This document shows, one piece after another, positions 2,704 to 39,536 of a stretch of 39,536 bases of DNA. This DNA is from Prevotella sp. (GTDB lineage: Bacteria; Bacteroidota; Bacteroidia; Bacteroidales; Bacteroidaceae). Both the position numbers and the translations under genes were made by a program. Each line of letters begins with the position of its first letter. Within the stretch, counting starts at the first letter, position 1. The notes beneath the pieces are model-generated. The model was given only the letters and a program-made list of their open reading frames with translations. It did not search any database and was not told the origin of the DNA. Location of the stretch: contig JAFVGZ010000002.1 of the NCBI GenBank assembly GCA_017478025.1, positions 1 through 39,536 on the forward strand, given 5' to 3'.

Positions 2704-3285
2704 CTAAATCCTGATGGAATTGAGGCGGGCTTCCAGCTCTTCGAGCTTGGATTTTGCAATAGCAAACGTGATGGAGCAGGTGTTGTTGAAGTTCTGCTGC
2801 ACTATGCGTGCCTGCATATTGCGCCCTATTTTCATCACCTCGTTCATCTTCTCGTATGCAAAGGTGAATTCCAACTGTCCCTCCATGAGTCTCTCTGTTG
2901 TCTGGGCATGAGCTAATGCGTCTGTTGCTGCGGTGCGGTATGCCACAATGAGGCCACCAGTGCCGAGATTTACTCCGCCATAGTATCTAATAACAAAGAT
3001 TACAACGTCTGAGATACCGGCACTGAGCATTGCTCCGAGTATGGGCTTCCCTGCAGTAGAGGAGGGCTCGCCATCGTCGTTGGCGCGGAATACGGCTCCA
3101 TCAGGGCCGAGACGATAGGCGTAGCAGACGTGGCGCGCATCGTAATACTTCTTGCGATAGAAGCTGTTGAGCTCCTTGATTTGCTCAACAGTGGTCACTG
3201 GATGTGCGAACGCGTAGAACTTACTCCGCTTCTCGGTGTAATATCCCTCTGAGGGTTCTTGTATTGTTGTATAAGTATCAGACAA
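2704..3285 (-). CDS. yigZ: YigZ/IMPACT family protein
   Basis: A 193-residue member of the UPF0029/IMPACT family. The family motifs are clear: ARHVCYAYRLG at about 50-60, NDDGEPSSTAGKP at 69-81, and RYYGGVNLGTGGL at 100-112, followed by a DUF1949-type C-terminal domain. The bacterial family has no firmly established role; eukaryotic IMPACT modulates Gcn2 signalling. The start must be the TTG at 3283-3285, since an in-frame TAA lies a few codons upstream and no ATG fits the homologous N-terminus. It follows the lipid kinase-like gene by 27 bp, so the two are probably co-transcribed. Confidence 0.9.
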   Translation of the reverse strand: MSDTYTTIQEPSEGYYTEKRSKFYAFAHPVTTVEQIKELNSFYRKKYYDARHVCYAYRLGPDGAVFRANDDGEPSSTAGKPILGAMLSAGISDVVIFVIRYYGGVNLGTGGLIVAYRTAATDALAHAQTTERLMEGQLEFTFAYEKMNEVMKIGRNMQARIVQQNFNNTCSITFAIAKSKLEELEARLNSIRI

Positions 3286-3312
3286 TGTGCAATCTACGGT
3301 CTGTTATCTTTC

Positions 3313-4311
3313 TTAGAAGTTTAATGTGTTCTGAATTAGGTTCTTCGTCTCGTCTTGCAACACCTGTATGTCGTTGAAGAACTGCGAGAAGGTGGTCTGC
3401 ATGAAGTTCGGTCTGCGGCGCCTTTTGTCCGCATGTGCATTCACGACCACACGGATTCCTTTGTTGCGCATTACTACGTGCAGATCGGCATCTGTTTCAA
3501 TTGGATCTCCGTCGTAGTGTATGAGACCTGGCTTAGAGCGGCGTATGCGAATGTCCTTGCCCTGGAAGCATTTCGTGCGTGCAGACTGGTTGATGGTCTT
3601 GCTCATCAGGTCTATGCCCACCTGTGGCGCGGTGAGTATTCCCAATGGCTCCATGATGACAATGTCAAGCAGACCGTCATTCATGGATGCCTGGGGCGCT
3701 ATATAGGCATCGTTGCCGTACTGTGAGGCGTTAGCGATAGATACGAGGAAGGCTTTGTAAGACTCATATTCACCGCCGTCAATGGAGATGTCATAAGTCT
3801 CGGATTCGTATTGAAAGCCTGCTTTAAGTATTTTCTCTAAGTATGTGATTCTTCCGCGTTTACCAGCTTCAGCAAATCTCTTTGATATATATGCGTCAAA
3901 GCCTACGCCGCAGGTGCAGAAGAAAGGGTGGTCATTGATGAGTCCATAGTCCAATTCGTGCACTATCCCCTCATTGATGATGTCAATAGCACCCTCTGGC
4001 GTGTTTGGCAACATAAGGTGTCTCGCCAGTCCGTTACCAGACCCGGCGGGTATGATACCTAAAGCGGTAGGTGTTTCTCTCAATGCACGTGCCACCTCAT
4101 TCACCGTTCCGTCGCCACCAACGGCCACAACAGTGTCAACGCCTTGCTCAACAAGGGATTTGGTTAAAACGGTAGCGTGGCCGGAATGCTCTGTGAAGAA
4201 TATCTTAACCTCATACTTAGTGGCGTCCATGCGCGACTTTATCAGGTCGGGAAATCCCTCCTTGCTTTCTGTTCCCGATTTGGGATTGATAATGAATGAA
4301 ATTTTTTTCAA
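3313..4311 (-). CDS. Diacylglycerol / sphingoid-base kinase family protein
   Basis: A 332-residue lipid kinase of the DAGK catalytic family (YegS/DgkB/sphingosine kinase type), which phosphorylates a lipid hydroxyl with ATP. The nucleotide-binding signature GGDGTVNEV is at 65-73 and PAGSGNGLAR at 88-97; the rest matches the two-domain family length. The substrate cannot be read from the motifs. Its neighbour, divergently transcribed 166 bp away, is a serine palmitoyltransferase, which makes a sphingoid base, so a dihydrosphingosine kinase is a reasonable reading; a related Porphyromonas enzyme is reported to phosphorylate dihydrosphingosine. Plain diacylglycerol kinase remains possible. A -7 element (TAACTTTG) lies at 4337-4344 on the minus strand. 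Confidence 0.88.
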   Translation of the reverse strand: MKKISFIINPKSGTESKEGFPDLIKSRMDATKYEVKIFFTEHSGHATVLTKSLVEQGVDTVVAVGGDGTVNEVARALRETPTALGIIPAGSGNGLARHLMLPNTPEGAIDIINEGIVHELDYGLINDHPFFCTCGVGFDAYISKRFAEAGKRGRITYLEKILKAGFQYESETYDISIDGGEYESYKAFLVSIANASQYGNDAYIAPQASMNDGLLDIVIMEPLGILTAPQVGIDLMSKTINQSARTKCFQGKDIRIRRSKPGLIHYDGDPIETDADLHVVMRNKGIRVVVNAHADKRRRRPNFMQTTFSQFFNDIQVLQDETKNLIQNTLNF

Positions 4312-32957: not shown

Positions 32958-34025
32958 ATGAAGAAGTACAATTTTAATGCAGGTCCGTCAATTCTTCCAC
33001 GCGAAGTGATTGAGCAGACAGCTGCAGCATGTCTTGATTTTGACAATTCAGGACTCTCACTTATGGAGATTTCTCACCGTGCAAAGAACTTCCAGCCCGT
33101 CGTTGACGAGGCAGAGGCACTCATGAAGGAGCTGCTCGACATTCCAGAGGGCTACAAGGTGCTCTTCCTGGGAGGTGGCGCATCCTTAGAGTTCTGCATG
33201 GTTCCATTCAACTTCCTTGAGAAGAAGGCTGCCTACCTCAACACAGGCGTTTGGGCTACAAAGGCCATGAAGGAAGCTAAGCTCTTCGGCGAAGTAGTAG
33301 AGATAGCATCATCTGCTGACAAGAACTTCACCTATATCCCTCAGAACTACACCATCCCAACAGATGCAGACTATCTGCACATCACTACCAACAACACCAT
33401 CTACGGTACAGAGATCCGTGAGGACATCGACTCTCCAATTCCTCTGATTGCCGATATGTCATCAGACTTCCTCTCTCGCCCTCTCGACGTGAGCAAGTAC
33501 GCTCTCATCTACGGCGGTGCACAGAAGAACCTCGCAATGGCCGGTGTTACCTTCGTAATCGTAAAGGAAGACGCTCTGGGCAAGGTATCACGTCAGATTC
33601 CTACTATGCTCGACTATCGCACACACGTCAAGAAGGGCTCTATGTTCAACACACCTCCAGTAGTACCTATCTACTCTGCCCTCATGAACCTGCGTTACAT
33701 CAAGGCTCACGGTGGCGTAAAGGCAATGGACAAGCTCGCTCATCAGCGTGCAGAGATTGTTTACGGTGAGATAGACCGCAACAAGCTCTTCGTAGGAACA
33801 GCAGAGGAGAGCAGCCGCTCACTCATGAACCTCACCTTCGTCCTCAAGCCAGAGTACCAGGATCTGCAGGACGAGTTCCTCGCCTTCGCTACATCAAAGG
33901 GTATGGTAGGCGTCAAGGGACATCGTGACGTAGGTGGATTCCGTGCTTCTTGCTACAACGCAATGTCAATCGAAGGCTGTGAGGCCCTCGTAGCATGTAT
34001 GAAGGAGTTTGAGGCTCAGCACTAA
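32958..34025 (+). CDS. serC: Phosphoserine aminotransferase
   Basis: A 355-residue class V PLP aminotransferase that converts 3-phosphohydroxypyruvate to phosphoserine, and may also serve pyridoxine synthesis. N-terminal [21 protein letters not shown] (69-79) and the PLP lysine K190 in GGAQKN are diagnostic. Codon use is strongly biased towards a few codons, unlike the neighbouring menA, as expected for a highly expressed gene. Its own promoter precedes it, and serA, the preceding pathway enzyme, follows after 179 bp of inverted-repeat DNA. Confidence 0.96.
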
Positions 34026-34043
34026 TTCGCGAATGAAAGAAAG

Positions 34044-34136
34044 TTGAAAGAAATTAGAATAATTAGAATAATTTTTCGCTACCAGATATTTCCAACTGCG
34101 TCAGTTTATTATTCCTATTATTCCAATTTCTTTCAA
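34044..34136. repeat. Long inverted repeat between serC and serA
   Basis: Arms 34044-34072 and 34108-34136 are each 29 nt and complementary at 26 positions, with a 35-nt loop. Each arm contains a tandem AGAATAAT-like word. It could act as an attenuator, an mRNA-stabilising hairpin or a bidirectional terminator. Confidence 0.75.
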
Positions 34137-34162
34137 AAACCATCGAAATACATACGCTAAAT

Positions 34163-34200
34163 AATTCGTTAATTCGTTAATTTGTTAATTCGTTAATTCG
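34163..34200 (+). repeat. Octamer array (TTAATTCG) before serA
   Basis: Five near-perfect tandem 8-bp units end 4 bp before the serA ATG. The same unit precedes htpX and lies in the dapA leader. Confidence 0.8.
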
Positions 34201-34204
34201 ACAT

Positions 34205-35125
34205 ATGGTTAAAGTTTTAATCGCGACAGAGAAGCCATTTGCTGCTCCTGCTGTTGCTGGAATAAAAGAAATCATCGAGAAGGCAGGCTTCGAACTCGCG
34301 CTCCTCGAGAAATACACAGAGAAGTCACAGCTTCTTGCTGCCGTAGCAGATGTTGATGCAATCATCATCCGTTCAGACAAGATCGACGCAGAAGTGCTCG
34401 ACGCTGCCAAGAACCTCAAGATTGTCGTTCGTGCCGGTGCCGGTTATGACAACGTAGATCTCGCTGCCGCTACCTCACACAACGTAGTAGTCATGAACAC
34501 CCCGGGCCAGAACGCCAACGCCGTAGCAGAGCTCGTGCTCGGACTCCTCGTCTATACCGTACGTAACTTCTACAACGGCAAGGCAGGCTCAGAGCTCATG
34601 GGCAAGACCCTCGGCATCCTCGCCTTCGGCAACGTAGGCCGCAACGTGGCACGCATCGCCAAGGGCTTCGGCATGAACGTATGCGCATTCGACGCATACT
34701 GCCCTGCTGACGTCATCGAGGCAGCTGGCGTAAAGGCGTGTGCTTCACAGGCAGACCTCTTCAAGGAGGCAGACATCATCTCCCTCCACATCCCTGCAAC
34801 AGCAGAGACAAAGCAGTCCATCAACTACGACCTCTGCAGCACGATGAAGAAGAACGCAATCCTCATCAACACAGCGCGCAAGGAAGTCATCGACGAGGCA
34901 GGCCTGCTCAAGCTGCTTGCAGAGCGCGAAGACCTGAAGTACATCACCGACATCAAGCCCGATGCTGATGCCGACTTCGCCAAGTTCGAAGGTCGTTACT
35001 TCTCCACCCCAAAGAAGATGGGTGCCCAGACAGCAGAAGCCAACACCAACGCCGGTCTTGCAGCAGCAAACCAGATAGTAGGCTTCATCAAAGAAGGCAT
35101 CACAAAATTCCAGGTAAACAAGTAA
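34205..35125 (+). CDS. serA: D-3-phosphoglycerate dehydrogenase (short Bacteroidales type)
   Basis: A 306-residue NAD-dependent 2-hydroxyacid dehydrogenase, assigned as SerA from its pairing with serC. NAD-binding GILAFGNVGR is at 137-146 and the catalytic Arg is R225 in INTAR. There is no ACT regulatory domain. Two usual landmarks are missing: the acid of the DVFEEEP-type segment, and the catalytic His, where TPKKMGAQ (268-275) replaces TPHIGG. The same replacement is, as I recall, typical of Bacteroidales SerA. Codon bias is strong, like serC. Its last codons and terminator are duplicated at 35808-35907. Confidence 0.88.
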   Translation: MVKVLIATEKPFAAPAVAGIKEIIEKAGFELALLEKYTEKSQLLAAVADVDAIIIRSDKIDAEVLDAAKNLKIVVRAGAGYDNVDLAAATSHNVVVMNTPGQNANAVAELVLGLLVYTVRNFYNGKAGSELMGKTLGILAFGNVGRNVARIAKGFGMNVCAFDAYCPADVIEAAGVKACASQADLFKEADIISLHIPATAETKQSINYDLCSTMKKNAILINTARKEVIDEAGLLKLLAEREDLKYITDIKPDADADFAKFEGRYFSTPKKMGAQTAEANTNAGLAAANQIVGFIKEGITKFQVNK

Positions 35126-35150
35126 ATCTCAATCCCTTATACCCTACGAC

Positions 35151-35195
35151 AAAGACACCGGTACCGCATCACAAGCAGTATCGGTGTCTTTATTT
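35151..35195 (+). terminator. Intrinsic terminator of serA
   Basis: AAAGACACCG (35151-35160) pairs with CGGTGTCTTT (35182-35191), extendable by three more pairs inside, followed by an AT-rich TATTTT tract. Confidence 0.85.
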
Positions 35196-35283
35196 TCTCA
35201 TCCCTCAATGTTCAAAGATGCGTTTAAGTTATGCAAAATGGAAAATCGCTTTTACATTTTCATGACGTAGCATCTTCGACGAA

Positions 35284-35388
35284 GTCAATGGTCAATTGTC
35301 AATCGTCAATCCTCAATGGTCAATTGTCAATCGTCAATGGTCAACGGGCAATTGTCAATTGTCAATGTTCAATGTTCAACGGTCAAAT
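35284..35388 (+). repeat. 15-copy heptamer array (GTCAATN)
   Basis: Fifteen consecutive 7-bp units of the form GTCAATN with few substitutions (CTCAATG, GTCAACG, GGCAATT, TTCAATG, final GTCAAAT) run without a break. The array feeds straight into the duplicated promoter cassette. Shorter TCAATG(G/C)TCAAT runs also occur next to the dispersed repeats at 35905 and 38583. Confidence 0.85.
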
Positions 35389-35528
35389 TTTGCATTTTGA
35401 ATTCTTAATTTTTAATTTCCTCCCCCTCCCCTCGCTCCGCAGAGAAATTATCATCGTTTTCTTTGTATATTCAGAATTTATTCTTAATTTTGCAGCGAGA
35501 AATAAATACGAATATAGTTATGACAGCA
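35386..35528 (+). promoter_or_regulatory. Duplicated promoter-and-start cassette, copy 1
   Basis: These 143 bp match 38603-38745 at 139 positions without gaps. They include a perfect promoter, TTTG at 35462-35465, 19-nt spacer, TAATTTTG at 35485-35492, and end with the first three codons ATG ACA GCA of the antitoxin-like pseudogene. Confidence 0.9.
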
Positions 35529-35822
35529 GTTGCAAGAAAATTATTGGAAACTCCAATGGCCCCTTATTCAAATTTGTTGCAGAGCATGAGTAGCGAAGAA
35601 AAAAAAATTGTCATCATGTTCTTGACAGAGTCCTTGTCAGAGTCATCAGATAAATCCAACGAATTCAGCCTGTCCAAAGAAGAGCGGAAGCGAGGTCTAA
35701 TGTCCCTTGCGGGTTGTTGGAAAGACAATCCTTAAGACGCCGCCAAAATGGAGTCTGCTATTAAGGATGCCCGTAAAAATGAATTTATGCGAGAAATAAA
35801 TTACAGACAGGTAAACAAGTAA
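35520..35822 (+). pseudogene. Antitoxin-like gene interrupted by a nonsense codon and fused to a serA tail
   Basis: The frame starts at ATG 35520 and runs 71 codons (MTAVARKLLETPMAPYSNLL to AGCWKDNP) to a TAA at 35733-35735. Without that codon it stays open for 28 more residues (DAAKMESAIKDARKNEF..) to TAA 35820-35822, and GAA-to-TAA is the simplest explanation because DNPEDA is what I would expect in this antitoxin-like family. The last codons (QVNK) are copied from the serA 3' end, so the true C-terminus is replaced. No toxin gene follows. I read it as the remnant of a type II antitoxin; a functional 71-aa product is not excluded. Confidence 0.7.
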
Positions 35823-35907
35823 ATCTCAATCCCTTATACCCTACGACAAAGACACCGGTACCGCATCACAAGCAGTATCGGTGTCTTTTTTTACTCATCC
35901 CTCAATG
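35808..35907 (+). repeat. Duplicate of the serA 3' end and terminator
   Basis: 100 bp identical to 35111-35210 at 98 positions, offset 697 bp. It carries the last codons of serA (QVNK, stop) and a second intact terminator hairpin (35848-35857 / 35879-35888 followed by T7). Confidence 0.9.
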
Positions 35908-35924
35908 GTCAATGCTCTATCGTC

Positions 35925-35970
35925 CGCTCGGCCCTATGGGACGCTTGCGTAGTATAACGGAGCAAGAATG
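35925..35970 (+). repeat. Dispersed hairpin repeat, copy C
   Basis: Reads CGCTCGGCCC..GACGCTTGCGTAG..CGGAGCAAGAATG, matching copies D and E over most of about 45 bp, and is followed by the same TTCAATGCTCAAT flank as copy E. A 133-codon frame covering this stretch is fortuitous. Confidence 0.75.
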
Positions 35971-36018
35971 TTCAATGCTCAATCGTCAGTCGCATCTTGC
36001 CGTCAGCAGCACGAAGTT

Positions 36019-36060
36019 TCAACTGGTTACAATTTGTAACCGTTTCATTTCCTTCTTCAT
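36019..36060 (-). pseudogene. Truncated 13-codon reading frame behind an intact promoter
   Basis: On the minus strand ATG at 36058-36060 opens MKKEMKRLQIVTS and stops at 36019-36021, just before the dispersed repeat. The start resembles a signal-peptide N-region that has lost its gene body. A good promoter precedes it (36091-36122). It is probably the beginning of a gene cut off by recombination; a leader peptide is the alternative. Confidence 0.4.
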
Positions 36061-36090
36061 AGTTATATTCTTATTTAGTTATTCTTTCGG

Positions 36091-36122
36091 CAAAATTACA
36101 AATAAAAATCCTTATCACCAAA
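36091..36122 (-). promoter_or_regulatory. Minus-strand promoter
   Basis: On the minus strand TTTG (complement of 36119-36122), a 20-nt spacer and TAATTTTG (complement of 36091-36098). It drives the truncated frame at 36019-36060. Confidence 0.65.
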
Positions 36123-36130
36123 AAACAAGC

Positions 36131-36155
36131 AAAAAAAAACCACTCGCGAAGAGTG
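36131..36155 (-). terminator. Intrinsic terminator, minus strand
   Basis: CACTC (36141-36145) and GAGTG (36151-36155) form a 5-bp stem with a 5-nt loop, followed on the minus strand by nine T residues (complement of 36131-36139). It is well placed to end the lipoprotein/MSL-like operon. Confidence 0.6.
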
Positions 36156-36200
36156 AGCCCTATCATGCCAGGAACCCCGTCCCCTGTGGCATCAGCAAAA

Positions 36201-36226
36201 GGGTGGGGACAAATTGTCACCCCCCC
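36201..36226. other. Hairpin in the spacer 36156-36299
   Basis: GTGGGGACAA and TTGTCACCCCCC form an imperfect stem around a one-base centre. The spacer 36156-36299 otherwise shows no supported gene. A plus-strand frame here ends in TWIEFGYSASKWIRVP at 36313, which I cannot assign. Confidence 0.4.
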
Positions 36227-36299
36227 TTCGATACCAACGCCTGGAGGCAAGCAACGGGTGATACTTGGATAGAGTTTGGCTATAGTGCTTCAAAGTGGA

Positions 36300-36500
36300 T
36301 CAGAGTCCCTTGATCATTGGGAAGCCGCAGGTCAGAATGTCGCCACCCTTGCGATGCTTTGGCAACACACGGTAGTCTGTGGCGCGAGCCAAAGCGAAAG
36401 CCCCATTGCCGTAGGCATGATAGAACATACCCACGGCCATGAGGTAAAACGCGGTTTGACCATTGCTTTCCTGCTGCTGCAGGATTTCCTTTTCCGTCAT
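36300..36500 (-). CDS. Truncated DGR-associated MutS-like (MSL) protein
   Basis: A 66-residue frame beginning MTEKEILQQQESNGQTAFYL, with MAVGMFYHAYGNGAFALARA and YRVLPKHRKGGDILTCGFP. This matches my memory of the N-terminal half of small proteins resembling MutS domain I that sit beside reverse transcriptases in Bacteroidetes diversity-generating retroelements. Those proteins are about twice as long and end in an EAMNFL-like helix; here the frame leaves the family after GFPM and stops within five codons, so I consider it truncated. It lies 93 bp after the lipoprotein gene, separated by two hairpins. No reverse transcriptase follows. Confidence 0.65.
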   Translation of the reverse strand: MTEKEILQQQESNGQTAFYLMAVGMFYHAYGNGAFALARATDYRVLPKHRKGGDILTCGFPMIKGL

Positions 36501-36522
36501 AATGGCCTATTCTATTTTTTCG

Positions 36523-36562
36523 ACCGCCTTACGGCGGTATCTACAAGCCGCTAATGCGGCTT
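36523..36562 (-). other. Two tandem perfect hairpins between the variable region and the MSL-like gene
   Basis: ACCGCC/GGCGGT (36523-36528, 36533-36538) and AAGCCGC/GCGGCTT (36545-36551, 36556-36562) each close a 4-nt loop. DGR targets are known to carry a hairpin or cruciform with a 7-10-bp stem and 4-nt loop just after the variable region; one of these has the right stem length, but the loops (GTAA and ATTA on the coding strand) do not fit the reported GRNA consensus. Confidence 0.65.
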
Positions 36563-36593
36563 TAATAGATAAATTGGTAAATCGATAAATAGG

Positions 36594-37916
36594 TTAAAAA
36601 GCGAGGCAGGCACGAACCAGAGGAGCGCCGATGTTTTTAGGGACCTCTTCCCAATTGCCCCTGCCCGTGTTAAAGTTGAAAATGCTTACGTAGCCGGAGC
36701 CGCCCTCCGTACTAGACCAGTAGAAGTCCAACTTCAAGTTAGAACCGCCAACACTGGTGAAGCCGTCGCGAAGGTAGTTGTAGGCGCCTGCTGCAGTAAT
36801 CATATTATTCCACTGACCCTGGCTGGCCAGCAGCCATGTTGCACCGGTAACAGGAGTGGACGTGTTCTTGGTGGTGTTGCAGGCTGTCTTTGCATTATTC
36901 CAATCCATACCACTACTGCTTTCATCGGTCAGTGCCAGCGCCAGACCATGGTTGTAGGTGGCATGGCCCGTGGTACCTATATAGATTATCTTGGCCACGC
37001 GAGCCTTCGTGCAGGCAGCATCTGCACCATAGGCATGGATATGTCCGTCTGCACAAATAAGCTTGCCCTTGTCTGCAGACGTAGCTGCTGCTGCCATCGT
37101 GTAGGCCGCAGCCTGTGTCTTCGTCACGTTGTACACCTTGCCATCGAGTGTCTGGCTGGCACCGAATGAGATGGCGGCTTTACTGCCCATTTTCACGTTG
37201 GCACTGCTCAGCGTTGTGCCTTTGGCTACGGGCAGGACAAACTTGGCAACGACCTTTTCACTCTCAGTCGTCGTAGTAACGTAGGCAGTGCAGATGGCTG
37301 CGCTGTTGTTGCTGACTACAGCAGAGAGTTCGGTGCCAGTGGTGGTACCGTCCTCGAAGGTAATCACGAAGTTGAGGAAGGCGGTCTGCTGCGTCAGCGA
37401 GAACGACTTAGCGCTGTAAGTCGATGTGCCAGTCAGGTTGCTGTATTTCTGTACGGCATCGTTCACGCTGGAGCAGTAGGCTGACGAGGGATAGTTCACC
37501 GTTACGGCTCCGGTTGTCGCATTGATAGTTACCTCAGAGCCATCAGTCTGCTGTGCGCTCACCAGCGTGGCGGTCAGCGAAAGGTCGCTGGCAGGAGTGC
37601 CAGAGCCTGAATAGGTCAGGTCACCCGAGAAGGTGGCGCTGGCAGTACCCGTACCCGTCTGGATGTTGAGCACGCCCTTGATGTTGGTGCCAGTCACGTA
37701 GAGTTTGTCACCGGCAGCAAAATAGAGCGTCTTGTTGTCACTCTCAACGGTGGCGCGTGTTGAGGCACCGCTATTGACTGTTACAGTGTAGGGAATGGTC
37801 TTTGCCGCGTTCTGCTGTACGGGCGATTCGTTAGCGTTGTCATCGTTTGAACAGGCGGTCATCACGAGGGCGGCCGTCATCGACAGCGCAGCCCAAAGAA
37901 AGCTATTCTTTTTCAT
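36594..37916 (-). CDS. Fimbrillin-like lipoprotein with C-type-lectin-like C-terminus (DGR target type)
   Basis: A 440-residue surface lipoprotein: signal peptide with lipobox VMTAC and Cys22, followed by acidic SNDDN. Residues about 40-280 resemble the fimbrillin family (ATVESDNKTLYFAAGDKLYV and two beta domains). Residues about 285-440 have the C-type-lectin-like layout of Bacteroidetes DGR targets: GKLICADGHIHAYG, IIYIGTTGHATY, GLALAL, TWLLASQGQWNNM, YWSSTE and final VRACLAF. Such domains present a variable binding surface. It is the second gene of an operon with a 43-aa peptide gene 27 bp upstream and the MSL-like fragment downstream. An ordinary non-diversified CLec lipoprotein is the alternative. 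Confidence 0.8.
   Translation of the reverse strand: MKKNSFLWAALSMTAALVMTACSNDDNANESPVQQNAAKTIPYTVTVNSGASTRATVESDNKTLYFAAGDKLYVTGTNIKGVLNIQTGTGTASATFSGDLTYSGSGTPASDLSLTATLVSAQQTDGSEVTINATTGAVTVNYPSSAYCSSVNDAVQKYSNLTGTSTYSAKSFSLTQQTAFLNFVITFEDGTTTGTELSAVVSNNSAAICTAYVTTTTESEKVVAKFVLPVAKGTTLSSANVKMGSKAAISFGASQTLDGKVYNVTKTQAAAYTMAAAATSADKGKLICADGHIHAYGADAACTKARVAKIIYIGTTGHATYNHGLALALTDESSSGMDWNNAKTACNTTKNTSTPVTGATWLLASQGQWNNMITAAGAYNYLRDGFTSVGGSNLKLDFYWSSTEGGSGYVSIFNFNTGRGNWEEVPKNIGAPLVRACLAF
36597..36722 (-). other. Candidate DGR variable region (VR)
   Basis: The last 42 codons of the lipoprotein gene, from YWSSTE to the conserved-type end VRACLAF. Between them many codons are NNC (GGC, GGC, TCC, GGC, TAC, AGC, TTC, AAC, GGC, GTC, ATC), as expected if AAC codons of a template had A positions randomised. 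The end GTTCGTGCCTGCCTCGC is GC-rich, like an initiation-of-mutagenic-homing site. No template repeat was found in the window. Confidence 0.6.
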
Positions 37917-37943
37917 TGTCGTTTCTGTTTAAAGGGTTCATTA

Positions 37944-38075
37944 CTAAAGGTCTTCAGGATCGCCCATTGGGTTGAGGTTTCCATCACCATTACTACCTGC
38001 CAGCAGCTGCGGCTGTTGTTTCAACTCGAAGACCTGCATCGAGGGCTTCTCATACTCTCTTTTCTTTGTTGTCAT
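37944..38075 (-). CDS. 43-residue peptide with LLAGS motif
   Basis: An ATG at 38073-38075 opens a 43-codon frame, MTTKKREYEKPSMQVFELKQ then QPQLLAGSNGDGNLNPMGDP and a short acidic end, stop at 37944-37946. The pattern of aromatic-x-KPxMxVxEL, a Gln-rich stretch, LLAGS and a Gly/Asp/Asn-rich tail recurs, as I recall, in short Bacteroidales proteins encoded near fimbrillin-type lipoproteins; their role is unknown. There is no signal peptide. It is the first gene behind the promoter at 38156-38186 and lies 27 bp before the lipoprotein gene. Confidence 0.7.
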   Translation of the reverse strand: MTTKKREYEKPSMQVFELKQQPQLLAGSNGDGNLNPMGDPEDL

Positions 38076-38155
38076 GTATTTATGTTTGTGAGTTAAATAG
38101 ATTGTTCTAAACATCGTCTAAATTATTCTAAACGTCGTCAAGTCCGTTTCGGCTG

Positions 38156-38186
38156 CAAAGGTAATACATCCGCCGTTAATTTCAAA
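38156..38186 (-). promoter_or_regulatory. Promoter of the LLAGS peptide-lipoprotein operon
   Basis: On the minus strand TTTG (complement of 38183-38186), 19-nt spacer, TACCTTTG (complement of 38156-38163). The 80-nt leader contains a 14-bp direct repeat TTCTAAACRTCGTC at 38105-38118 and 38126-38139 (plus-strand sense). Confidence 0.85.
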
Positions 38187-38243
38187 AAAAAAAACGAAGA
38201 AAAGTTAAAAGGTGACGAAATCATTAGCGCAACTACCTTTTGA

Positions 38244-38270
38244 TGAAACAGGTGACAGGTTCCTGTTTCA
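38244..38270. other. Perfect 9-bp hairpin
   Basis: TGAAACAGG (38244-38252) and CCTGTTTCA (38262-38270) with a 9-nt loop. It lies between the smalltalk terminator and the operon promoter; the word GAAACAGG recurs in the terminator next to it. Confidence 0.6.
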
Positions 38271-38276
38271 CATACT

Positions 38277-38317
38277 AAAAAAATCCCCGAAACAGGGTGG
38301 TTAATCCTATTTCGGGG
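38277..38317 (-). terminator. Terminator of the smalltalk-like gene
   Basis: CCCCGAAACAGG (38285-38296) and CCTATTTCGGGG (38306-38317) pair over 12 positions with one mismatch; on the minus strand seven T residues follow (complement of 38277-38283). Confidence 0.85.
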
Positions 38318-38323
38318 TGTTGC

Positions 38324-38419
38324 CTACACATTAAATCCGAGGGTAGTGAGTACCGCTGTGACAGTCGTGAGGATTAGATTTATCCACACCGACCACTTGT
38401 TCTTTGTGTTGTCAGTCAT
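38324..38419 (-). CDS. Smalltalk-like mini-protein (31 aa)
   Basis: ATG at 38417-38419 opens a 31-codon frame, MTDNTKNKWSVWINLILTTV then TAVLTTLGFNV, stop at 38324-38326. A short polar N-terminus, a Trp and one hydrophobic helix ending TTLG match my recollection of the smalltalk family of about 32-residue Bacteroidales proteins of unknown role. An unusually strong Shine-Dalgarno (GGAGG, complement of 38425-38429) lies 5 nt upstream, rare in this phylum. A terminator follows 7 bp later. The amidase and HU-like genes that often accompany the family are absent; dispersed repeat D lies directly upstream. Confidence 0.65.
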   Translation of the reverse strand: MTDNTKNKWSVWINLILTTVTAVLTTLGFNV

Positions 38420-38447
38420 GTTTTCCTCCTTTCATGATTCAATTCTT

Positions 38448-38487
38448 CGCTCGGCACTTTGTGACGCTTGCGTAGCAGAGCGGAGCA
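38448..38487 (+). repeat. Dispersed hairpin repeat, copy D
   Basis: A 40-bp copy identical to copy E. Terminal CGCTC and GAGCG can pair around an inner ACG-CTTG-CGT hairpin. Confidence 0.85.
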
Positions 38488-38493
38488 TTTAGA

Positions 38494-38510
38494 GCCCCTT
38501 AATAAGGGGC
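38494..38510. other. Small perfect hairpin between repeats D and E
   Basis: GCCCCTT and AAGGGGC form a perfect 7-bp stem with a 3-nt AAT loop. Confidence 0.6.
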
Positions 38511-38539
38511 GGCTATAATGCAGGGATTTTTACCGTTAT

Positions 38540-38579
38540 CGCTCGGCACTTTGTGACGCTTGCGTAGCAGAGCGGAGCA
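38540..38579 (+). repeat. Dispersed hairpin repeat, copy E
   Basis: Forty bases identical to 38448-38487, then AGAATGGTCAATGCTCAAT, the same flank as copy C, leading into promoter cassette copy 2. Confidence 0.85.
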
Positions 38580-38602
38580 AGAATGGTCAATGCTCAATCC
38601 AT

Positions 38603-38745
38603 AATTTTGCATTTTGAATTTTTAATTTTTAATTTCCTCCCCCTCCCCTCGCTCCGCAGAGAAATTATCGTCGTTTTCTTTGTTTATTCAGAATTTATTC
38701 TTAATTTTGCAGCGTGAAATAAATACGAATATAGTTATGACAGCA
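38603..38745 (+). promoter_or_regulatory. Duplicated promoter-and-start cassette, copy 2
   Basis: Matches 35386-35528 at 139 of 143 positions with no gaps. TTTG at 38679-38682, 19-nt spacer and TAATTTTG at 38702-38709 form the promoter; the homology ends after ATG ACA GCA of the antitoxin gene. Confidence 0.9.
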
Positions 38746-38994
38746 TTACAATTAAACGCACAGATTTGGCGAGACATGAGCATCTTGGCTGACAGCGAAC
38801 CCATGATGAAGCGAGTGGCAAAATACTTGCATAATTTGGTCGCAGAAAAAGAAGACTCAACTCTGATGACGAAAGAGGAATTCTTCGCCAAAATTGAGCG
38901 TGCCGAACAGCAGATAGCCAGAGGTGAAGGAATGGAAATGCGTCCAGACGAAGATTTGACAATGTTTTTGAAGAGAAACGGATACAATGTATAG
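38737..38994 (+). CDS. Type II antitoxin of a YoeB-type module
   Basis: An 85-residue protein, helical and acidic, with a C-terminal half (MTKEEFFAKIERAEQQIARG and a RPDEDLTMFLKRNGY tail) that should wrap the toxin. I see no clear Phd/YefM N-terminal fold, so the family is assigned by context. ATG 38737 is chosen because it lies just after the promoter and is shared with the other cassette; a longer frame from 38680 would start inside the promoter. The stop overlaps the toxin start by 8 bp, the usual antitoxin-first arrangement, and the complex probably represses its own promoter. Confidence 0.85.
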   Translation: MTALQLNAQIWRDMSILADSEPMMKRVAKYLHNLVAEKEDSTLMTKEEFFAKIERAEQQIARGEGMEMRPDEDLTMFLKRNGYNV

Positions 38995-39259
38995 AGTCAT
39001 CATCACACCTGAAGCTGCCTCTGATTTGGAACGACTTGCTTATAGTGAGCCAAAGGCGTTTGCCAAAGCCAGCCTCTTTATCGGAGAGTTGCGAGAGCAT
39101 CCAAAGACTGGGACGGGCCATCCTGAACCTCTTAAAGGTAAGCCTGAAGGAAGATGGAGCCGCAAAATCACCAAGAAACATCGTATGGTTTATCGCATCT
39201 TCGAAACAGAGGTTTACGTTGACGTACTCTCGTCTTATGGGCATTACGATGACAAATAA
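38987..39259 (+). CDS. Txe/YoeB family toxin, ribosome-dependent mRNA interferase
   Basis: A 90-residue RelE-superfamily toxin. By comparison with E. coli YoeB, the catalytic residues map to E47 in HPEPLKG, R66 in KKHRMVYR and H86-Y87 in the C-terminal YGHYDD. The GRWSRKI segment (55-61) is also typical. Such toxins cut mRNA in the ribosomal A site and are neutralised by the co-encoded antitoxin. It overlaps the antitoxin gene by 8 bp. All key residues are present, so the toxin looks active. Confidence 0.92.
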   Translation: MYRVIITPEAASDLERLAYSEPKAFAKASLFIGELREHPKTGTGHPEPLKGKPEGRWSRKITKKHRMVYRIFETEVYVDVLSSYGHYDDK

Positions 39260-39286
39260 GTAGTCTCGTGATATAACTTCAGCTAT

Positions 39287-39400
39287 CTACTTGACTGACT
39301 CCCTCATTTGTTCTATAAGATCATCAGAAGATACAAGCGTAAACACATGATTACATATCCCGACAGAAAGAGTCTTGCGTCCTTCTGAAGCATTTACCTC
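39287..39400 (-). pseudogene. Possible C-terminal gene fragment
   Basis: On the minus strand a 37-residue open stretch ends LVSSDDLIEQMRESVK at 39287 but is closed by an in-frame TAA at 39401-39403 and has no start codon. The composition looks protein-like, but I do not recognise it. It may be the end of a lost gene or chance. Confidence 0.25.
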
Positions 39401-39401
39401 T

Positions 39402-39536
39402 TACCTTTGCATCCGATTATAGAGATTGTTCCATTTTCATGAAATAATTCTTGCAGATGGATGCAATACGGTTTAAGTTTTGTAGCTTTGCTAGAGATTT
39501 ATGCCGTTGAGGGTGAGAAGACACTTACCTAGATAA
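39402..39536 (+). other. Terminal spacer with two promoter-like -7 elements
   Basis: TACCTTTG at 39402-39409 and TAGCTTTG at 39483-39490 match TAnnTTTG, but neither has a convincing TTTG about 20 nt upstream. No gene is visible before the window ends; a plus-strand gene may begin just outside. Confidence 0.35.

Follow-up and report, generated by a model that had tools for sequence, protein, structure and literature searches.

According to PMC4891356, Treponema denticola strains without the reverse transcriptase (RT) and template repeat (TR) of a diversity-generating retroelement (DGR) keep their target genes, many of which encode lipoproteins, and these targets differ from the templates of sister strains mostly at adenines; the authors of that account believe that they are remnants of lost DGRs. 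Remote variable proteins have been described in cyanobacteria, where C-terminal CLec-type variable regions (VRs) are dispersed away from the RT (PMC7517822). The DGR of Bordetella phage BPP-1 requires a GC-rich hairpin with a four-nucleotide loop 3′ of the VR, and the phage DGRs presented in the same source have the loop consensus GRNA and a hairpin 4–34 bp from the VR (PMC3240598). Furthermore, MSL (MutS-like; Pfam PF01624) is listed among the known accessory proteins of DGRs (PMC10053308). Among DGR papers searched by title and abstract opening, with subscription papers mostly uncovered, none dealt with the VR family described below.

Here, we analyzed a window that is a whole contig of 39,536 bases (C43; genome label G000). 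The source assembly comprises 2.93 Mb in 43 contigs and is 84.7% complete, and the four relatives that have names are labeled as Prevotella or Prevotellaceae MAGs. We consider it likely that the window holds a real DGR target that has lost the RT-bearing half of its machinery and whose VR is probably frozen.

Layout of the locus

ORF predictions and folding bore out the minus-strand arrangement read in the initial annotation, i.e., a 43-aa peptide, a 440-aa protein, two hairpins, and a MutS-like fragment (Table 1). An Rfam search of the window gave no match.

Table 1. Features of the locus in window coordinates; the last line gives the genes of the related locus L135 in the numbering of its own contig.
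Feature	Position	Strand	Basis
43-aa leader-like peptide gene	37944..38075	-	ORF; kin conserved immediately 5′ of related target genes
DGR target (variable) protein gene, 440-aa lipoprotein, frame intact	36594..37916	-	ORF and full-length relatives
VR, 3′ end of target gene	36597..36722	-	Codon-position and third-base signature across relatives
IMH-like 21-mer, conserved 3′ end of VR	36597..36617	-	Recurrence across genus genomes
Hairpin 1, 3′ of stop codon, 7-bp stem, loop ATTA	36545..36562	-	Folding
Hairpin 2, GC-rich 6-bp stem, loop GTAA	36523..36538	-	Folding
Truncated MSL DGR accessory gene, first ~61 codons	36319..36500	-	Pfam MutS_I; L030/L135 homology
Post-break unrelated sequence, last codons and stop of 66-aa ORF	36300..36318	-	Alignment
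L135 genes (G387:C30)	peptide 1118-1240; target 1290-2627; MSL from 2729; Avd 3051-3335; RT 3345-3881, off contig

In at least 15 loci, a relative of the 43-aa peptide immediately precedes a match to the target protein (tblastn, read by hand), and searches of Pfam, NCBIfam, and PHROG with the peptide gave no match. The N-terminus of the 440-aa protein, MKKNSFLWAALSMTAALVMTACS, was judged by eye to be a lipoprotein-type signal. Full-length relatives are encoded at loci L030 (66% identity) and L031 (56% identity); the searches recovered no further strain of the species, L030 providing the nearest full-length relative. The protein had initially been annotated as fimbrillin-like with a C-type-lectin-like end, and both labels apply indirectly, because the matches lie mainly in relatives and are weak or absent in the window protein itself: Pfam Lcl_C matched the C-terminal module in 18 of 26 aligned relatives and gave no match in the window protein, and the Mfa1 fimbrial model matched six of the 26 at E ≤ 0.01 and the window protein weakly (E 0.051). 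A profile built from 26 sequences matched PDB 8q4e (HbP1) with an E-value of 7.1e-8.

Regarding the surroundings of the locus, a YoeB/Txe-type toxin (TIGR02116, 64.6 bits) with an ORF in antitoxin position is found at 38680–39259 (plus strand), and a second ORF at 35463–35735 (plus strand) has the same upstream stretch as this toxin–antitoxin pair. The stretch is repeated with 97% identity over 143 nt (35386–35528 and 38603–38745), and the two copies flank the DGR remnant. At 35284–35386, a 14-nt TCAATGGTCAATTG-like unit is repeated in tandem. A 105-nt direct repeat (97%; 35111–35215 and 35808–35912) bounds a unit of 697 bp and spans the 3′ end and the terminator-like hairpin of a 306-aa gene, which, by eye, we take to encode a dehydrogenase; it looks as if an insertion had taken place at the 3′ end of this gene.

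Variation in the VR family

The ends of the related genes have a common DNA skeleton, in which codon positions 1 and 2 vary and position 3 is mostly C. Mean entropy over 18 VR codons was 1.61, 1.71, and 1.28 bits at positions 1, 2, and 3, respectively. At the choice codons of 40 genes, NNY accounted for 277 of 324 codons in the VR (85.5%) versus 6911 of 10471 upstream (66.0%). The NNY share was above the upstream share in 38 of the 40 genes (paired Wilcoxon p 1e-10), a p-value that overstates independence, as the VRs are related and have codon habits in common, so that the samples are not independent. This comparison was restricted to the ends ACLAF, ACFAF, ACLVF, SCLAF, and PCLAF, one of 41 sequences being dropped by the length and motif filter. 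Variation at positions 1 and 2 together with a preference for C or T at position 3 fits mutagenized AAY template codons.

Pairwise comparisons were in line with this pattern (differences at positions 1, 2, and 3). Between the window and L030, we counted 88, 63, and 131 differences over the upstream 380 codons and 13, 13, and 9 over the last 42 codons (39 aligned). The corresponding values for the window and L037 were 182, 164, and 212 upstream and 13, 17, and 11 in the last 42 codons, and those for L030 and L037 were 170, 158, and 217 upstream and 12, 11, and 5 in the last 42 codons. The VR end of L031 is a different one, and pairs with this locus were less clear-cut (window, 106, 81, and 172 upstream and 17, 14, and 15 in the last 42 codons; L030, 105, 89, and 179 upstream and 21, 20, and 16 in the last 42 codons).

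These numbers bear on an explanation that does without a DGR, namely an ordinary Lcl_C-type adhesin whose loops vary by selection and recombination, with a stray MutS-like fragment alongside. The wide occurrence of Lcl_C among the aligned relatives, the failure to find a TR, and the existence of multi-copy arrays (L085 and L086), which allow recombination, would all agree with such an adhesin. Ordinary divergence, however, falls mostly on third positions, which is also what the upstream parts of these genes show, whereas the VR behaves otherwise and has an excess of NNY codons; moreover, MSL is a DGR-linked gene in the relatives. We regard this explanation as highly improbable. The variation between species has the A-to-N form expected of a DGR target, which is not direct proof; because no TR of this VR family was found, adenine-limited change was deduced by comparing the VRs with one another. 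Mutagenic retrohoming would then have made the window VR.

A separate observation concerns L087 (G306) and L088 (G145), whose VRs are the same except at 4 of 150 nt. The flanks of these two loci are far more divergent than the VRs (70% identity over 600 nt upstream, ungapped, and 27% over 100 nt downstream), which suggests that the module may have been transferred.

Hairpins downstream of the VR

The stretch with the two hairpins folded far better than shuffled sequences (z −4.84; 0 of 200 shuffles as good). Both hairpins have four-nucleotide loops and are also present in L030, L031, L135, and G390. Hairpin 1 starts 34 nt past the VR end. Its loop, compared in 11 loci, is GACA in seven and GAGG, GTAA, and TGTC in one each, and ATTA in the window only. 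GACA fits the GRNA consensus of phage DGRs; neither of the window loops, ATTA and GTAA, does. As it departs from this consensus, the ATTA loop gives a weak hint at a decayed target site. A GC hairpin within 110 nt was detected for 15 of 41 C-terminal ends versus 2% of shuffles, the 15 including one false VR (L071), and by this measure most ends were without such a hairpin.

MSL stump and related operons

The 66-aa ORF (36300–36500, minus strand) matched Pfam MutS_I barely above the cut-off (21.0 versus 20.6 bits), and its residues 1–61 are 93% identical to the MSL of L030, in agreement with the initial description of a fragment resembling the MutS-like accessory of DGRs. At the DNA level, the window and L135 are homologous from the VR end to ~36319, corresponding to MSL codon ~61, where the homology stops; the last five residues of the ORF (MIKGL) are therefore not MSL. 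Past the break, the window sequence did not align with L030, L031, or L135. Homology to L135 ends later in the other two loci, at MSL codon ~94 in L030 and ~105 in L031, and no RT or Avd match was found in either of them. A 21-mer match in genome G390 (L187; G390:C94:73-375) was rejected as a full VR, as only the terminal bases of a VR are present there, ahead of the hairpins and a broken MSL; the remainder of the target gene is gone. The MSL of G390 breaks at codon 61, identical to the window, and this common break is beyond what independent decay explains.

To assess the association between MSL and RT, we searched 398 genomes of the genus with a five-row MSL alignment and judged adjacency to DGR RT matches by hand. 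In total, 19 MSL places were found in 16 genomes, and ten of the 19 places adjoin a DGR-type RT (G387, G024, G330:C31, three in G189, G288, G201, G105, and G003). The nine without adjacent RT are those of the window (G000), G390, G330:C97, G032, G282, G286, G006, G278, and G349. Among these, the weak matches in G278 and G349 may have arisen by chance or represent true MutS, those in G330:C97 and G390 are near a contig end, and the RT of G282 may be missed, because this genome has a local TR–VR pair. Other RT-less MSLs are damaged too, i.e., those of G032 and G286 are fragments. To our knowledge, the DGR of BPP-1 has no MSL.

The closest RT-bearing relative of the window is L135 (G387:C30), with the order peptide–VP–hairpins–MSL–Avd–RT. 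Its Avd matched Pfam bAvd with 49.2 bits, and its RT, cut by the contig end, matched RVT_1 with 29.0 bits, slightly below the cut-off of 29.6. Between L135 and L030, the MSLs are 87% identical. L135 is itself damaged, its MSL and Avd being shortened, with one running into the other, and the sequence between them being rearranged; its VR 3′ end differs, with two mismatches in the 21-mer, and no TR was found on its short contig. With an operon that continues into Avd and RT in L135, a break inside MSL in the window, and neither RT nor TR found in the assembly, the initial view of a DGR decayed by loss of its RT is well supported. Regarding L030, the DGR RT in its genome (G060) is accompanied by an MSL from a different subfamily. 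The TR–VR finder returned no pair in G060; similar frame-shifted ORFs, compared by eye, suggest that this DGR has a TR–VR pair of its own. As a template for the L030 VR, the G060 DGR locus was discarded, being absent from the top matches of an A-tolerant scan.

Search for an RT and a template in the genome

A search of the genome for RT and TR, which the initial annotation had proposed, was run in several ways. Both the RVT_1 profile and an alignment of DGR RTs gave 0 matches in the 84.7%-complete assembly. The final 21 nt of the VR, with up to three mismatches, matched a single place, i.e., the VR itself, as did blastn with 153 nt of VR DNA (E ≤ 1), and an A-tolerant TR scan of the window gave low scores only. 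Neither the RT nor the TR that a complete DGR would have was thus found in the assembly, in support of a lost RT. Of the two observations that the initial annotation had named as refuting its reading, one, the lack of a template, holds within the assembly. In the flank at 34001–39536, the search for an RT relic returned just one match of 22 residues (E 0.7). An RT or TR could, however, lie in the ~15% of the genome that the assembly does not cover, and their absence is not proof of loss.

As a control, 22 TR–VR pairs from loci of the genus were used. Blastn with 153 nt of the VR (E ≤ 1, database size 3 Mb) recovered the TR in 22 of 22 pairs, and a 21-mer taken from where the shared block ends had at most three mismatches in 20 of 22, a sensitivity that is flattered because the pairs were chosen by the A-tolerant TR–VR finder. 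A cruder control, in which the 21-mer was anchored to the stop codon, left 11 of 22 pairs with at most three mismatches, several of the misses being due to a wrong frame or to a block that ends before the stop.

Template-less targets across the genus

With up to three mismatches, the VR 21-mer was matched at 90 places, spread over 70 of the 398 genus genomes; not all of these places are VRs. By eye, we read 82 of the 90 places and recognized no template for the window VR family among them. The eight unread places are found in G102 (two), G275, G322, G178, G120, G093, and G395:C10 (one each); the 21-mers of the first seven resemble ones that were read elsewhere as non-VR. A draw of 399 genomes from the family (≤2 mismatches) added four genomes, all of one other genus, with three VR-like matches and one that is not; none looks like a TR. 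Across all loci, we obtained 56 distinct VR-like ends (57 less the false positive L143; 54 and 49 with earlier filters); three of them belong to another genus, and one (L030) is not part of the 398-genome draw. VRs with the window-type 3′ end occur in ~40 of the 398 genomes (hand count). A flanking RT match was found for two of the 56 ends (L135 in G387 and L192 in G330), Avd for one at a contig end (L190 in G408), and MSL without RT for two (the window and L030); some RTs could be out of view, because the downstream flanks span only 180 to 11,890 nt.

VR-like modules also form arrays, with four 21-mer places in L085 (G271:C55) and three in L086 (G067:C4). Several of these modules lie inside longer frames and not at the protein end.

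Strong DGR RT matches (E ≤ 1e-40) are present in 28 of the 398 genomes (hand count). Six genomes combine such a match with a window-type VR (G100, G145, G201, G288, G330, and G387) versus 2.8 expected (P 0.049; hand tally); two of these are VRs of a local DGR, and the RT of G100 has in-frame stops. The threshold does not mark the limit of DGR RTs, as G354 and G420, with matches near 1e-24, have TR–VR pairs. At E ≤ 1e-10, which takes in 85 genomes with RTs of DGR type or not, the overlap is nine versus 8.5 expected (counted by hand), the added genomes being G179, G195, and G368. The link between window-type VRs and a resident RT is at most weak. Local TR–VR pairs were found at at least 20 RT loci of the genus, and none of the TRs of these DGR loci fits as the source of a window-type VR. 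The genome G145, a single contig of 3.45 Mb, has two window-type VRs and one strong DGR RT match with an unrelated TR; beyond the two VRs there is no 21-mer match and no template for them.

The initial annotation had raised the further possibility of a remote target served in trans, to which the co-occurrence counts lend little support. In this case, a DGR elsewhere, i.e., on the unassembled part of the chromosome, a plasmid, or a phage, would still diversify the window VR. It would accord with the incomplete genome, with the retained VR, IMH-like end, and hairpins, with the precedent of remote targets in cyanobacteria (PMC7517822), and with a pair of loci in G288 (L091 and L146), a genome with four strong DGR RT matches: these are 96% identical over 100 nt after the VR, and their VRs differ at 33 of 150 nt, mostly at codon positions 1 and 2. 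Against it stand the lack of a recognizable TR at the 82 places read by eye and at the four family-draw matches, the single contig of G145 with its unrelated TR, and the recovery of most TRs (20 and 22 of 22, with finder-picked controls) by searches of the same kind. Furthermore, the window has the loop ATTA in place of the GACA found in seven of 11 loci, and phage, plasmid, and viral collections gave no match. A live remote target is in our view unlikely.

As ~40 of 398 genomes share the VR end on many scaffolds, with no template among the 82 places read, one may also think of a traveling DGR on a rarely assembled mobile element, which would enter a genome, rewrite resident targets in trans, and be lost again. 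We consider this quite unlikely; if true, target and machine would be inherited separately.

Discussion

Our preferred reading, a DGR target left behind by its machinery, builds on the operon order, the truncation point, the absence of RT and TR from the assembly, and the DGR-type variation across relatives. The ancestral operon would have comprised the peptide, the target lipoprotein, the hairpins, MSL, Avd, and RT, plus a template repeat. The 3′ end of the target gene would have received adenine-mutagenized cDNA copies of the template, and the product would have been a surface protein, possibly a displayed adhesin, with a variable binding face of Lcl_C type. In the lineage of the window, everything beyond MSL codon ~61 would then have been lost, presumably by deletion or rearrangement, and the VR would now be frozen. 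As the protein frame is intact, one variant of the target is probably still expressed, with diversification being over.

The case documents a DGR target that seems to have outlived its RT, and RT-less targets of this VR family are common in one Prevotella-type genus. A large DGR survey states that its own method would miss remote targets (PMC8144416); as surveys anchored on the RT miss such targets, DGR-made surface proteins may be undercounted.

Within the genus, the locus compares best with L135, with which it has in common the peptide, a similar C-terminal target module, the two hairpins, and an MSL of the same subfamily; L135, in contrast, goes on into Avd and RT and has another VR 3′ end. 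In the BPP-1 DGR, as in the window, a GC-rich hairpin with a four-nucleotide loop lies 3′ of a C-terminal VR, but, as described, the BPP-1 DGR is complete and active, and the GRNA loop consensus of phages is absent from the window (PMC3240598). With their C-terminal CLec-type VRs and no RT alongside, the remote targets of cyanobacteria resemble the window, whereas in the genomes presented in that source a resident DGR has a TR that matches the remote VR (PMC7517822). The RT-less targets of T. denticola, many of them likewise lipoproteins, have adenine-type variation and neither RT nor TR; according to their description, however, sister strains supply the matching TR and HRDC is the accessory gene, whereas for the window no TR was found and an MSL stump is left (PMC4891356). 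RT-less DGR targets are already known from T. denticola, and the window is another such case; more unusual is that so many targets across the genus are without a recognized template.
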